From Muribaculaceae bacterium (GTDB lineage: Bacteria > Bacteroidota > Bacteroidia > Bacteroidales > Muribaculaceae), in assembly GCA_017651515.1 (NCBI GenBank), contig JAGCCU010000005.1, positions 1-34,109 of the forward strand: a DNA stretch of 34,109 nucleotides, read 5' to 3'. Below the pieces are notes generated by a model. The model worked only from the letters and a program-made list of their open reading frames with translations, had not been told where the DNA came from and searched no databases. The translations under genes and the position numbers were made by a program. Below, one piece after another: positions 7,422 through 12,362 of the stretch. The number at the start of each line of letters is the position of its first letter. Position 1 is the first letter of the stretch.

Positions 7422-8381
7422 TTACGGCCAATTTTGCATATTTGCAATAATGTCGTTTCTTTTTAGCAGATGGATTATGCGAGTGGTGTTTATAGTAACG
7501 CCGTCGCGATTGATGTGATACCCACCATTGTAGTTGTAGCAGTCATCTATCGTCATCGATTGGGGAGTGACGGCATAGGGGCGCTTTATACTGTCGAGTG
7601 CTTGCTTTATGGAATTGTTATAACAATATATAAAATGATTTTTGGGACATACAGGAGGAAGCATAATCACTGTGGCGCCACATTTTTCATATTCAATGAT
7701 GATTTCATCAAGCCATTTCATAAATTCTTGATTAACAGCATTTGCCACCATTGCATTTGATTTCTCAAAAGACTGTGGAGGCAGATGCCAGTGGCTTACT
7801 TCGTCGCCAAGGTCGTTAAATCCGCTTGCCACATACTTAAAGGCTGTATGCTTGTTTGGCGTATCAAAACTCCCAGTAACGCAAGCTTTGATGAATCGTA
7901 TGGCATTACTTGCTGCCAAACGTGGAAGTCCTATAAATACATTGATGAGTTGCTGAGTATTTAGTGAGCTGAGGTTCCTCCATTTGGTGACCATCATTAG
8001 TTGTGGCATAGTTTCAGGTTCGCCATTGCCTCCGGAAAAAAAATTGCCGTATTCAAATTGAAAAACCACAATGTCGCCTGGGCGGATGTGTTTCAGGCAG
8101 TCTTCCACAGGGTAACGAATGCCTATACCGCCATGAAGTCCCATATTCACCACATGGCAGTGTAATGAATCCTCGATCATGTGCGAATCCAAACCAAATG
8201 CCAGATTGCTTCCTCCTATGAAAATAATGCGTGGAGCAGGACATGTGATAAGTCTTGCCATTTTCGATTTGTAGGCCATAAGGTAATTATTCCTGTCGAC
8301 GGGAATGAGCCATACTAATGAAACGATCAATATTATGAATAACGTAATGCAACACAGCAACTTTAGTATGTAGTGTTTCAT
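7422..8381 (-). CDS. SGNH-like membrane-anchored acyltransferase partner of MBOAT
   Basis: A 319-residue protein with one N-terminal transmembrane segment (about residues 8-27) and a periplasmic SGNH-like domain. RIIFIGGSNLAFG places the presumed nucleophile S58 in a GGSN variant of the GDS block, and GGYHINRDG near the C-terminus supplies H289. The gene begins 2 bp after the MBOAT gene, the arrangement of MBOAT plus AlgJ/AlgX- or DltD-like pairs that O-acylate envelope polysaccharides or proteins. In such pairs the MBOAT brings acyl groups across the inner membrane and the SGNH protein places them on the acceptor. The acceptor here is unknown. Assignment is by motif and neighbour. Confidence 0.75.
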   Translation of the reverse strand: MKHYILKLLCCITLFIILIVSLVWLIPVDRNNYLMAYKSKMARLITCPAPRIIFIGGSNLAFGLDSHMIEDSLHCHVVNMGLHGGIGIRYPVEDCLKHIRPGDIVVFQFEYGNFFSGGNGEPETMPQLMMVTKWRNLSSLNTQQLINVFIGLPRLAASNAIRFIKACVTGSFDTPNKHTAFKYVASGFNDLGDEVSHWHLPPQSFEKSNAMVANAVNQEFMKWLDEIIIEYEKCGATVIMLPPVCPKNHFIYCYNNSIKQALDSIKRPYAVTPQSMTIDDCYNYNGGYHINRDGVTINTTRIIHLLKRNDIIANMQNWP

Positions 8382-8383
8382 GA

Positions 8384-9805
8384 TTAGAATTGGAAATAGA
8401 TGAACTGTGATTGAGTTCCGGAGAAGGTACAGATACTCATTGCTATTGCAAAATATACTGAATATCGCAAAGAAGAATGACGTGCAAGGATTGAATGGCT
8501 GTTAAACTGCAGGGCATGTTCACTGTGCCGTCCGTGCCATTCCATTGTGAGCATGAGGATTATAACAAGAATTATTAGTGGTATATTAACATTACTGAGT
8601 TCAATGGTATCTATGTATTTCATAGAGCAAAGATTCAACAAAAAACCTGTGGCATCGTGCAGTGTAGGTGCTCTGAAGATAATCCATCCCAAAGTGACGA
8701 GCGTGAAAGTCAGTAGAGTTGATACAGTCTTGAAGAATTGGTTTTCAAAATGCTTAAATTTGTCAATACTAAACAAAAATATGCACAGTAACGCTGCATG
8801 GTATATGCCCCATGCAATGAAAGTCCAGTTTGCGCCATGCCACAGTCCGCTAATGGCAAACACAATAATAATGTTCCTCAAGTGGTGGAGCCGTGTACCT
8901 CGATTGCCCCCCAAAGGAATATAGATGTAATCGGTGAACCAGCGCATGAGAGATATGTGCCATCTACGCCAGAAGTCTTGAATGTTTTTAGAAAAATAAG
9001 GATATTTGAAGTTTTGACTTAGTCTGATGCCAAATAGTTTAGCACAACCGATGGCTATATCGCTGTAGCCTGAGAAATCACCATAAATCTGAAATGAAAA
9101 AAGCACGGCACCAACAAGTAGCGTGCTACTACCTACATGGTCATAATTGGCCCATATCTGATTTACGGCTATGGCGCAGTTGTCAGCAACTACCATTTTC
9201 TTGAAGAACCCCCACAGCATTTGTCGCAGTCCATCGGTTGTGGTAGCTGAATTGAAGTGCTGTTCGTGCATGAATTGTGGTAATAGGTCACTTGCACGTT
9301 CAATAGGGCCTGCAACCAACTGTGGGAAGAAACTTATATAAGCAAAAAATGCCGTCACGTCATGCGTAGATGCGATGCGACCACGATACACATCTATTGT
9401 ATAACTCAGAGCCTGAAAGGTGTAGAAACTGATGCCTACTGGCAAGATTACATTCAAAGTCACGCAGTCGATGCTTATTCCTATAATACCCATCAATGTA
9501 GAGAATTCTTGCATGAAAAAATTAAAGTACTTGAACAAGCATAAAATGATGAGATTAATTATGATGACTCCACTAGCTACAGCCTTGCGATGTTGAGTGT
9601 AACGTGACATTAGCAGTCCACTGGCAAAGCTACAAGCAGTGGTGAATATTATTAAGGCGAGAAAGCGCCATTCCCACCAGCCGTAGAATACATAACTTGC
9701 AAACACGATGAATGTATTTCGAGCATGTTGTGATTTAACCAACGCCCAATAAATCGTAAACACCACAGGCAAGAATATCAGAAACTCAAACGAATTGAAC
9801 AACAT
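8384..9805 (-). CDS. MBOAT family O-acyltransferase
   Basis: A 473-residue polytopic inner-membrane protein of the AlgI/DltB-type MBOAT family. It starts MLFNSFEFLIFLPVVF, typical for the AlgI branch, and carries FYGWWEWRFLALI, LPVGISFYTFQALSYTIDVY, FFPQLVAGPIERA, the IQDFWRRWHISLMRWF block and GLWHGANWTFIAWG with the presumed catalytic histidine. ATG at 9805 is chosen because the family N-terminus begins exactly there; longer frames reach into the upstream gene. It moves acyl groups, usually acetyl, across the inner membrane for O-acylation of an extracellular polymer, with the next gene as partner. It follows the sigma-barrel gene by 14 bp. Confidence 0.93.
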   Translation of the reverse strand: MLFNSFEFLIFLPVVFTIYWALVKSQHARNTFIVFASYVFYGWWEWRFLALIIFTTACSFASGLLMSRYTQHRKAVASGVIIINLIILCLFKYFNFFMQEFSTLMGIIGISIDCVTLNVILPVGISFYTFQALSYTIDVYRGRIASTHDVTAFFAYISFFPQLVAGPIERASDLLPQFMHEQHFNSATTTDGLRQMLWGFFKKMVVADNCAIAVNQIWANYDHVGSSTLLVGAVLFSFQIYGDFSGYSDIAIGCAKLFGIRLSQNFKYPYFSKNIQDFWRRWHISLMRWFTDYIYIPLGGNRGTRLHHLRNIIIVFAISGLWHGANWTFIAWGIYHAALLCIFLFSIDKFKHFENQFFKTVSTLLTFTLVTLGWIIFRAPTLHDATGFLLNLCSMKYIDTIELSNVNIPLIILVIILMLTMEWHGRHSEHALQFNSHSILARHSSLRYSVYFAIAMSICTFSGTQSQFIYFQF

Positions 9806-9819
9806 GATTTTCAATGCTT

Positions 9820-11565
9820 TTACGGGACAATACGTATGCCAAATGGTAATGCAACGTCGAAAGGATGTGCTGTGCGATAAGTCTCTATAGGGCTTCCTGT
9901 AGGTATGTAATAACGGAAGCCTGGCTCGAAATAGGCATTGACATGAGGTAGCAGCTTGTATTGAACGCCCACACTGGCTCCCACCGACCATTGCCACGGA
10001 GCCTTTACGGTGGCGTGGGTGGTTGGGAATACCAACGAGTCACCTGGGGCATGAGGGTACTTGCCGGTATAGATGTATTGGGTGGTTTCGCGTCCGCGCA
10101 GCGGTATGTCGAGGTGCACGCTGCCTGACGTATATACTGTCCAGCGGCGGTGTTGCCAGATGTTGTAGGTTACTCCGAGCGGCACATTGAGGTAGTAAAG
10201 CCGTTGTGTGCGTCGGGTGATATCGTTGTCATTTCCGTTGTCGGTTTCAAACGTTGATTTCATCCAAGTGAATCCAAGACCGGAACTGAGGCTCCATCGC
10301 TGGCTGAGTGGCATGCTAAGTGACAGCTGCACGGTGCGAGGCCGTTCGTGATGTTTGGTTTCGCTTAATGGCATCTTGTCATCGATTTCTTCCTGTATCT
10401 CAGGTGAACTCTGTGCGTGGCGGTCGGCTATCTGTTTCATGGCCATAGCATCTATTGAATCCATCAGTTCGGCATTGTCATTCAAGTAGTTGTAGTAGTC
10501 GCTCCAGGTGTAGAGTTTCATGGCTCGCTGGGTCTCGCCTGCGGCAAAATTGATCACCGAGAGGAAATTGTCGGTTACCGATGCCGTTGAATTTGGAGCG
10601 CCGCCGTAAGCCAAGTGCAAGTTCCAACGACGATGCGATTTGTCTTGATTTGACAATGTTTGTTGCTGTCTCTGTTGCAGTGATGGTGCCACAGTGGGAG
10701 CGGCAGGAATGCTGGATGCTTGCCACTTTAGGCCTTCAATGCTCGTAGCAGGAATGTCATAGCTGGTGAGTACACTCGTTTGTTCGTTGCTTGTAATCGT
10801 TGTTGATACTTGTTGGTTGCCAATGGCTGAGACGTTGCAGGTGGTTGTACTTCTAAATCCAGGCTGATTAGTCGAGAGTGTCGCCGATTGTAGCGTACCG
10901 GGAGTGGTAGTTAGTTGTCGCCTACTTGTAATTTGTTTTTTTTCTGATGGTGTTTTTTTAGTTTCGTTATTATTTGTCAGGTAAATACTCATAGGCAATA
11001 TAAGTGCTAAGAGGGTTGCCAGCAACGCCCAGTGATGTTTCACCATTTCCTGAAGTTGTTGCTTGGCTCGTGACAGTTGTGAGCGGCTACTGCTTTCAGT
11101 GATGCCTAGTAACTCGCCAATTTCACGGTGGCTCAGTCCCTCAAATGTCTTGAGCCTGAACACTTGTTGATAGCCTTGTGGCAGATGCCCGACCATTTCA
11201 AGTACTATGGGAATTGATATTTCAGGCAATATTTCATTGCTCGGCTCGATAGCTAAATCAATACTGTTATCTATGGGAATACGCTGGTGTGAACGATTTT
11301 GTTTGAGATAGTTTAGCGCCATGTTTCTCACTATGCTGCCCATCCATGCTTCTAGTTTAGTGGAACTGTGCAGTGAGTCTAATGTGGTGAAAATCATGAT
11401 CCAGGCATCGTGTTCGATGTCGCGGGCGGCTTCAGCATCTTCAACATAACGTCTGGAAATGCTCAACAACCTCTCGTGATAATGACTGTAGAGCCATTTC
11501 AAAGCGCCCTCGTTGCCCATGCGGCAACGCTGCAGTATCTCATCTATATCGGTTTTTGTCTTCAT
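9820..11565 (-). CDS. ECF sigma factor fused to TM helix, linker and outer-membrane beta-barrel
   Basis: One uninterrupted 581-residue frame. Residues 15-90 are sigma-70 region 2 (DIEHDAWIMIF, then WMGSIVRNMALNYLK); 120-172 are region 4 with helix-turn-helix (LPQGYQQVFRLKTFEGLSH, EIGELLGITESSSRSQLSRA). Only a few residues later comes one transmembrane helix, about 179-196, flanked by KHH on the cytoplasmic side. Residues 198-311 are Ser/Thr/Gln-rich and low in complexity, fitting a periplasmic linker. Residues 312-581 resemble outer-membrane barrels: RTVQLSLSMPLSQRWSLSSG, YYLNVPLGVTYNIW, WSVGASVGVQYKL. This is the topology of Dma dual membrane-spanning anti-sigma proteins, with the sigma factor in place of the anti-sigma domain. 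An internal ATG at 11046 could yield the TM-barrel part alone. Domain calls are firm; tethered, envelope-controlled sigma activity is inference. Confidence 0.88.
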   Translation of the reverse strand: MKTKTDIDEILQRCRMGNEGALKWLYSHYHERLLSISRRYVEDAEAARDIEHDAWIMIFTTLDSLHSSTKLEAWMGSIVRNMALNYLKQNRSHQRIPIDNSIDLAIEPSNEILPEISIPIVLEMVGHLPQGYQQVFRLKTFEGLSHREIGELLGITESSSRSQLSRAKQQLQEMVKHHWALLATLLALILPMSIYLTNNNETKKTPSEKKQITSRRQLTTTPGTLQSATLSTNQPGFRSTTTCNVSAIGNQQVSTTITSNEQTSVLTSYDIPATSIEGLKWQASSIPAAPTVAPSLQQRQQQTLSNQDKSHRRWNLHLAYGGAPNSTASVTDNFLSVINFAAGETQRAMKLYTWSDYYNYLNDNAELMDSIDAMAMKQIADRHAQSSPEIQEEIDDKMPLSETKHHERPRTVQLSLSMPLSQRWSLSSGLGFTWMKSTFETDNGNDNDITRRTQRLYYLNVPLGVTYNIWQHRRWTVYTSGSVHLDIPLRGRETTQYIYTGKYPHAPGDSLVFPTTHATVKAPWQWSVGASVGVQYKLLPHVNAYFEPGFRYYIPTGSPIETYRTAHPFDVALPFGIRIVP

Positions 11566-11620
11566 CTATTATAAGACAACCAATTTTTGAAACGTTGCGT
11601 CGTTGAAATAAAAAATGATT

Positions 11621-11711: not shown

Positions 11712-12362
11712 TTATCGTCTGCGGGTTTGGATTTGGAACGAGCACATCGTGTAGAGGTGGTCGCCGTCACTCAGGCCGATGGAGAAGTCAGCGCGACCGT
11801 TTTTCAGCTTGTTTGTGGCAACTACTTCGGCTTGATAGCGCACGGCACGGCCGGGAGCAAGTTCGCTGACAATGGCAGTGGGGGAGAGGTAAATCTGTTT
11901 TGTACCACTCACTGTGATTACCGGAGCCAGGTCATAAACATAATCTCGTCCAGTGTTGCGAATAATAAATGAAATTTTTGCGTGTTCACCGGCGTCGATA
12001 TGCTGATTGCGGTTGTTGTCATTAAATCGCAAATCTTCAATGACAATGTCGGCGTAGGGACTGTAGTAGTTGTTCTGACGATAGTCGTCGCGGTCATAAT
12101 CATAGTTATAGTCCGATGAGCGGTAATTGCCGTCCTGGGTCTTTGGAGCAGTGGCTGCAGCCCCCACGGCAGCACCTACTGCCATGCCGAGTACAGTGCC
12201 CATGTCGTGGCCGCGATGTCCGCCGGTTATGCCACCGATTGCCGAGCCGAAGAGTCCGCCCAACGAGGCGCCAGTGGCTGCACCATAGAACTGGTTTGTA
12301 GATGAGCAGCTGCTCATCATTATCAATGCAGCGCTCATGGCTGCCAGTGTAATTTTCTTCAT
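11712..12362 (-). CDS. Glycine-zipper lipoprotein with C-terminal beta-rich domain
   Basis: A 216-residue lipoprotein: the signal peptide ends at MMSSC with the lipidated Cys19. Residues about 31-70 are a glycine zipper (GASLGGLFGSAIGG, then GTVLGMAVGAAVGAA) like that of SlyB/YMGG-type envelope proteins, and can form a membrane hairpin. A Tyr/Asp/Asn-rich spacer follows (about 78-102), then a C-terminal domain from about 104 (DIVIEDLRFNDNNRN, AKISFIIRNTGRDYVYDLAP) that looks like a CARDB/LEA-type immunoglobulin-like fold. Function is unknown; an envelope structural or stress role is likely. It is a single-gene unit ending at the terminator at 11653-11684. Its promoter is unclear: TAAC followed by TTTTG near 12412 is one base too long. 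Confidence 0.78.
   Translation of the reverse strand: MKKITLAAMSAALIMMSSCSSTNQFYGAATGASLGGLFGSAIGGITGGHRGHDMGTVLGMAVGAAVGAAATAPKTQDGNYRSSDYNYDYDRDDYRQNNYYSPYADIVIEDLRFNDNNRNQHIDAGEHAKISFIIRNTGRDYVYDLAPVITVSGTKQIYLSPTAIVSELAPGRAVRYQAEVVATNKLKNGRADFSIGLSDGDHLYTMCSFQIQTRRR

Follow-up and report, generated by a model that had tools for sequence, protein, structure and literature searches.

The window analyzed here is a stretch of 34,109 nucleotides from a Muribaculaceae bacterium (contig JAGCCU010000005.1 of assembly GCA_017651515.1), and it carries a gene that joins an extracytoplasmic function (ECF) sigma factor to an outer-membrane barrel domain in one polypeptide (Table 1). The frame delimited by the initial annotation stands in its coordinates and in its 581 residues without an internal stop; the strand, which that annotation left unstated, is minus, and the plus strand of the same interval has many stops. 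The order of sigma domain, transmembrane (TM) helix, linker and barrel domain that it gave is likewise borne out by Pfam, hydropathy and composition. Sigma70_r2 (residues 25-91, 37.3 bits, cut-off 24), Sigma70_r4_2 (121-171, 55.5 bits, cut-off 25.7) and OMP_b-brl_2 (412-554, 36.6 bits, cut-off 27) all score above threshold, and no FecR-type anti-sigma domain is found among the seven Pfam families listed for the protein at E<=1. The top hydrophobic window of 19 residues begins at residue 179 (mean hydropathy 1.94), which suggests a single TM helix as in the Dma (dual membrane-spanning anti-sigma) family of Bacteroides. The linker of 114 residues consists to 44% of Ser, Thr and Gln, and this composition, together with fast evolution, points to a long disordered tether of the Dma type. 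At the junction of sigma domain and TM helix, where the initial annotation had allowed for a stop or frameshift, there is none in the gene or in two further copies from the same genome. Its suggestion of a barrel-only product from an internal ATG at 11046 (Met174) fared less well: the codon exists, and the analyses run give the product no support, conservation of the methionine being patchy (of the two promoter classes described below, one keeps it in 14 of its 15 proteins and the other in only 10 of 28).

Table 1. Features of the fused gene and its surroundings (positions in the window)
Feature	Position	Strand	Basis or remark
Whole fused gene: ECF sigma, TM helix, linker and outer-membrane barrel in one polypeptide	9820..11565	minus	581 aa (amino acids); ATG start; stop codon 9820-9822
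ECF sigma domain, residues 8-172 (region 2: 25-91; region 4: 121-171)	11050..11544	minus	Pfam and profile
Single hydrophobic (TM) helix, residues 179-197, abutting the end of region 4	10975..11031	minus	Hydropathy; helix 161-200 in a low-confidence model
Ser/Thr/Gln-rich linker, residues 198-311	10633..10974	minus	Composition; dN/dS 0.49-0.61
Outer-membrane barrel domain, residues 312-581	9823..10632	minus	OMP_b-brl_2, barrel profile and amphipathicity
ECF-type promoter element GCAAC-N13-GTTGTC, directly before the ATG	11575..11598	minus	Pattern scan
Block of barrel, MBOAT and third gene	7422..10623	minus	92.8% identical to RUG12202; sigma, TM and linker strongly diverged
MBOAT O-acyltransferase gene	8384..9805	minus	Pfam; possible starts 5-14 nt (nucleotides) past the fused stop
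Third gene of putative operon	7422..8381	minus	No Pfam match; SGNH/AlgX-like by our reading only

To judge from its relatives, the fused protein family is old and widespread in Bacteroidales. The same genome holds two further full-length fused copies, of 64% and 50% identity and free of stops, and of 101 genomes of the genus, 40 contain a match at E<=1e-35. Sigma and barrel lie in one frame in 38 of these, among them the genomes to which CACYRK010000006.1 and CAMVDK010000047.1 belong; the copies in G021 and G024 are broken, and the matches in G081 and G091 lack about 40 N-terminal residues. A profile of 11 fused proteins, applied at E<=1e-45, matches 66 of 297 genomes and 12 of 30 genera in a sample of the family, and 12 of 393 genomes and 9 of 207 genera in a sample of the order, figures that count matches and not fusions and include some sigma-only or broken genes. 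From the loci fetched, which represent part of all matches, we obtained 73 distinct frames with both a sigma and a barrel match (distinct over the last 380 residues, longer than 440 amino acids, close relatives included). Two relatives carry names: one contig comes from an uncultured Porphyromonadaceae bacterium, the other from the uncultured Bacteroidales bacterium RUG12202. Contrary to the possibility, raised with the initial annotation, that relatives are always split, fused forms recur, and 46 of the 101 genus genomes additionally contain free-standing Das-like sigmas (E<=1e-30 with one query; frames of 155-283 amino acids). With that single query, the sigma of L024, and the same threshold, the window's own genome (87% complete) yields no Das-like sigma. 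There is also no adjacent cognate sigma gene, the fused gene being the sole match of its own protein on the window's contig at E<=1. Of the own-genome fused genes L002 (G000:C41:148-1878) and L003 (G000:C28), one precedes an MBOAT gene and the other a CotH-kinase gene. In the broken copies L015/L035 (G021), L016 (G024), L096 (G656) and L097 (G415), sigma and barrel lie in different frames, through decay or assembly error.

The origin of the fusion can be read from its relation to the split pairs of Bacteroidales, in which das-like genes matched by the sigma profile of the fused family stand beside Dma-like genes; its barrel profile also matches the split Dma-like proteins. An unrooted tree of 81 sigma domains has a branch, supported at 100/99, that sets all 19 split sigmas apart, and a quick tree of 72 barrels, also unrooted, has a branch with a Shimodaira-Hasegawa-like approximate likelihood ratio (SH-aLRT) support of 95 that does the same for the 10 split barrels; the opposite side holds, in both, 58 fused proteins and four broken copies. 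These 58 were drawn from the 73 frames by leaving out 15 near-copies or N-terminally incomplete ones (the duplicate loci L034-L036, L142 and L143 were also left out), and the split set, 19 sigmas of which 10 have a Dma-like barrel gene in the locus, represents the best sigma matches and not a census. A first tree had included L033 and the distant own-genome sigmas L004-L008, which have very long branches; L004, one of these, was placed among the fused proteins, and the second tree was made without them. Because fused and split proteins separate cleanly in both the sigma and the barrel tree, the fusion most likely arose once and then spread. Independent fusions in different families were considered and are unsupported by either tree.

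The fusion also came with the loss of a domain. In all 73 fused frames the sigma match ends within -2 to 8 residues of the TM helix (median 2), whereas, once broken and duplicate rows are set aside, 47-58 residues precede the TM helix in nine of ten split Dma-like proteins (no reading could be taken for L028, the tenth). Because of this difference in spacing, the sigma domain has replaced the anti-sigma domain, as the initial annotation had proposed from the single protein of this window, and was not added to an anti-sigma factor. A Dma-type N-terminal cytosolic domain that binds sigma was found in none of the 73.

A sigma domain at the N-terminus of a Dma protein is not itself new. The initial annotation knew of no described system of this form, and here it was mistaken: Dma3 of B. 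thetaiotaomicron, reportedly first described by Pardue et al. in 2024, has a sigma domain of its own. According to PMC13088901, Dma3, of locus bt_2778-2779, carries that domain at the N-terminus of a Dma-family protein with no adjacent ECF21 sigma gene, and very little is known of it; its promoters, distribution, origin or any sensor exchange are not described in the available account. Dma3 and the fused family are likened here by that description and not by sequence. An iron-response table lists BT_2778, at about 2.3-fold, as a sigma-70 family sigma factor, and by its annotation BT_2778 is probably Dma3 itself. Dma1/Das1 and Dma2/Das2 of B. thetaiotaomicron share the TM helix, long disordered tether and C-terminal barrel (PMC13088901), but in these pairs, as in M0N98_03760/61 of P. 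vulgatus, which is induced by an envelope-acting toxin (PMC9308784), the sigma factor comes from a separate gene and is held by an N-terminal cytosolic anti-sigma domain that the fused proteins lack, a comparison made by published description. Outside this group, IutY of P. putida (ECF243) combines an ECF sigma and an inner-membrane helix in one polypeptide, responds to an outer-membrane signal and is processed by Prc and RseP (PMC5411451; PMC8999054); it differs from the fused proteins in its periplasmic anti-sigma domain and in relying on a separate outer-membrane receptor instead of containing a barrel. ECF48, ECF52 and ECF53 of Actinobacteria are sigma factors with a C-terminal TM extension and are expected to be released by proteolysis, but they retain a zinc-finger anti-sigma part and no outer-membrane barrel is described for them (PMC8999054). 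The architecture is already in print; the present analysis adds how widely it is distributed, its probable single origin, the promoter elements close to the gene and the apparent exchange of sensors.

Both ends of the protein are under purifying selection, and the linker much less so. The ratio of nonsynonymous to synonymous substitution rates (dN/dS) of the sigma part is 0.07-0.27 in five of seven pairs that were measurable and unsaturated, falling in region 4 to 0.03 in one pair, and that of the barrel is 0.07-0.17 in five of six measurable pairs, the sixth (window and RUG12202, dS 0.11) giving 0.34. For the linker, the four measurable pairs lie at 0.49-0.61. The C-terminal domain is assigned as a barrel, putatively a closed one, from family membership and from its strand pattern. 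Residues 400-581 contain 69 windows with beta-strand amphipathicity, where 300 shuffles average 11.3 and reach at most 34, on a hydropathy scale in which we had raised the values of Trp and Tyr. Roughly 8-9 strong amphipathic peaks are spread over residues 312-581, the first at 313-321 and the second after a stretch of about 90 residues. A search of solved structures returned 21 matching sequences, all over the sigma part.

The regions flanking the fused genes suggest what the sigma domain may read. Of the 73 fused genes, 51 carry one of two ECF-like elements in the interval from -200 to +90 around the called start, whereas 50 dinucleotide shuffles average 0.28 and never exceed 2; the interval was counted from the first possible start codon, and several elements fall just inside the called frame. 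GCARC-N13-15-GTTRTY, the class of the window's own gene, occurs in 14, and GCAGTMTTT in 37, often followed by a CATCTAT-like -10 element (by eye). In the window, GTTGTC ends 9 nucleotides before the ATG (window 11566-11575), and because the promoter element stands so near, the transcript of the fused gene should be leaderless. In the GCAGTMTTT group the element is often tens of nucleotides before the start. GCAGTMTTT also lies within 100 nucleotides after the stop of 29 of the 73 genes, usually before a gene on the same strand, and was found there 0 times in the antisense and 0 times in the reversed control (200 mononucleotide shuffles: mean 0.1, maximum 1). In the window's own genome, two of three fused genes have a strict window-type element and the third a near variant. 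Twenty other genomes contain 36 window-type matches (control, 11), of which 13 lie just before and seven just after fused genes; with the fused-gene matches removed, 16 remain against the 11 of the control. Because matches away from fused genes do not stand out from the controls, the visible regulon is local. The fused protein probably switches on its own gene and a neighbor. The two promoter classes differ also in the protein: at residue 161, taken to be within the recognition helix of region 4, all 15 proteins of the GCARC class have Arg and all 28 of the GCAGTMTTT class have Ser or Ala, a pattern consistent with, and not proof of, a matching of sigma to promoter.

The barrel appears to have been exchanged between lineages at its junction with the linker. 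Compared with RUG12202, the sigma part of the window's gene is saturated at synonymous sites (proportion of differing synonymous sites, pS, 0.87), and the barrel has a pS of 0.10. The DNA comparison places the edge of the exchange at window position 10623, near residue 315 in the first barrel strand, and the closely similar block runs on from there through the downstream genes (Table 1). On either side of the block, the window's sequence is instead syntenic with G003 and G047, two other genomes of the genus. A single misjoined contig as the cause of the exchange does not fit these syntenic flanks; other assembly errors are possible. A second case comes from the trees, in which L014, L047, L049 and L054 have sigma domains of the window's clade and barrels of a separate clade, and for L014, L047 and L054 the promoters are of the window's class, going with the sigma and not with the barrel. 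By the trees, these four loci represent a natural sensor swap.

On balance, and with no great confidence, we favor the view that the fused protein is a latent, membrane-tethered sigma factor of the Dma3 kind that is released by proteolysis. The domain order, the absence of an anti-sigma domain, the conservation and the promoter elements are observed; we infer its topology, inhibited state, signal and cutting, as well as the reading of its own promoter by the fused sigma. The ECF sigma domain would be cytoplasmic, with the end of region 4 running nearly straight into the inner-membrane helix, and a flexible periplasmic linker, at most about 40 nm when fully extended, would reach the outer membrane, where the C-terminal barrel would serve as the sensor. 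With no anti-sigma domain present, being held at the membrane by the end of region 4 would block a working holoenzyme on the promoter. A change in the outer membrane sensed by the barrel could lead to cutting of the linker, whereupon an RseP-type protease would cut the TM helix and free the sigma domain to transcribe its own gene and an adjoining gene or cassette, here the operon with the MBOAT O-acyltransferase and elsewhere genes for CotH kinases, radical-SAM enzymes, methyltransferases, acyltransferases or serpins. Cutting is proposed because Prc and RseP free the sigma domain of IutY from one polypeptide, and a gene for an M50/RseP-type protease is present in the window's own genome. More tentatively, and with somewhat more doubt than belief, we suggest that the family constitutes a one-protein system from outer membrane to DNA in which tethering through region 4 takes the place of the anti-sigma factor, and in which sensors have been recombined at the linker/barrel junction, at least once together with effector genes.

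A number of observations weigh against release by proteolysis followed by transcription of the protein's own gene. The upstream stretches of 22 of the 73 fused genes match neither promoter pattern, and a search for a wider regulon in the own genome gave 14 matches to the window-type pattern and 15 in the reversed control, with only the two at fused genes convincing. The link at residue 161 is confounded by descent, the classes being clades as well, and 15 of the 58 fused rows are unclassed. At least four of the 73 frames (L089, L109, L112 and L122) have their start within the sigma domain and are possibly broken genes. An RseP-type protease is also present in 14 of 14 control genomes. AlphaFold, run on three aligned rows, gave no usable model of either the full-length protein or the barrel alone (mean per-residue confidence, pLDDT, 36.0 and 31.3, respectively). 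To these are added the induction of the dma3 locus of B. thetaiotaomicron on deletion of dma1 or dma2 (PMC13088901) and the presence in the window's own genome of at least five other, distant ECF-like sigmas, matched by the fused protein at E<=1.

The fused protein might instead remain whole and act at the membrane, capturing RNA polymerase and promoter there while the barrel exerts its effect through tension or oligomerisation, much as ToxR and CadC are regulators that work uncut at the membrane. That sigma domain, TM helix and barrel are kept together in 73 frames speaks for such an arrangement, as does the protease step's being a proposal. We nevertheless consider it unlikely: with region 4 only -2 to 8 residues from the TM helix, and one helix running from 161 to 200 in the low-confidence full-length model, the -35 DNA and polymerase would presumably need to lie right at the membrane lipids, and IutY, the nearest studied single-polypeptide case that we found, is cut (PMC5411451).

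It could also be that a different ECF sigma, such as a free-standing Das, reads the promoters at and after the fused gene, leaving the fused sigma another or weaker role. Another sigma may read them because the own genome has further ECF-like sigmas and the dma3 locus is induced in both deletions; several split das-like genes, moreover, have a similar upstream TGCA(G/A)(C/T) element (by eye). This reading, too, strikes us as improbable, the own genome having no Das-like sigma detectable within the limits of the search given above and yet keeping window-type elements at its fused genes. That the sigma domain is defunct as a sigma, the protein being mainly an envelope tether or a sensor acting through protein contact, seems very unlikely. 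It would accord with the four broken copies noted above (G021, G024, G656 and G415) and with the finding that deletion of dma3 leaves the hypervesiculation of dma1 and dma2 mutants of B. thetaiotaomicron in place (PMC13088901), but selection on the sigma part, and on region 4 above all, is strong by the dN/dS values given above, both sigma regions exceed their Pfam cut-offs and the promoter elements are conserved. A sequencing or assembly artefact that merged two adjacent genes can be dismissed almost entirely, for while the window's assembly is fragmented (85 contigs), the one-frame fusion is repeated in 38 of 101 genus genomes and in other genera and families, and fused proteins fall on one side of a tree branch from the split ones.

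If the tether alone silences the sigma factor, a single polypeptide with no partner anti-sigma factor would link the outer membrane to RNA polymerase by a very direct path. Force or cleavage across two membranes could then be addressed with single genes in laboratory Bacteroides, namely the wild type, the sigma domain alone and barrel swaps. Ordinary annotation may hide regulators of this class, as illustrated by the listing of BT_2778 merely as a sigma-70 family sigma factor. The likely local targets, which include acyltransferases, CotH kinases, radical-SAM enzymes and serpins, can be imagined to modify or protect the cell surface, a theme that neighbors of the fused genes may have in common.

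Turning to these neighbors, the MBOAT gene of the window is probably co-transcribed with the fused gene because its possible starts lie so close past the fused stop (Table 1). Elsewhere, the next genes encode CotH kinases, radical-SAM/SPASM proteins, methyltransferases, Acyl_transf_3 proteins or serpins, and others have no telling domain. At the three radical-SAM/SPASM loci examined (L198, L197 and L200) a GFO_IDH_MocA oxidoreductase then follows; L198 also has a CotH kinase, and the radical-SAM genes of L198 and L197 are themselves preceded by a promoter element of this type. In L106, L107 and L133 a serpin gene lies directly downstream of the fused gene with a promoter element between the two. 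A window-type match at position 6317 of L193 (minus strand), which could be due to chance, lies about 60 nucleotides before a lipoprotein-like gene that has no Pfam match and is the second gene past the third fused gene of the own genome. Upstream of the fused gene in the window itself, positions 11712-12362 hold a Glycine-rich gene, lipoprotein-like by our reading and with no Pfam match, which is kept in G003 and G047 and is 79% identical in DNA in the latter.

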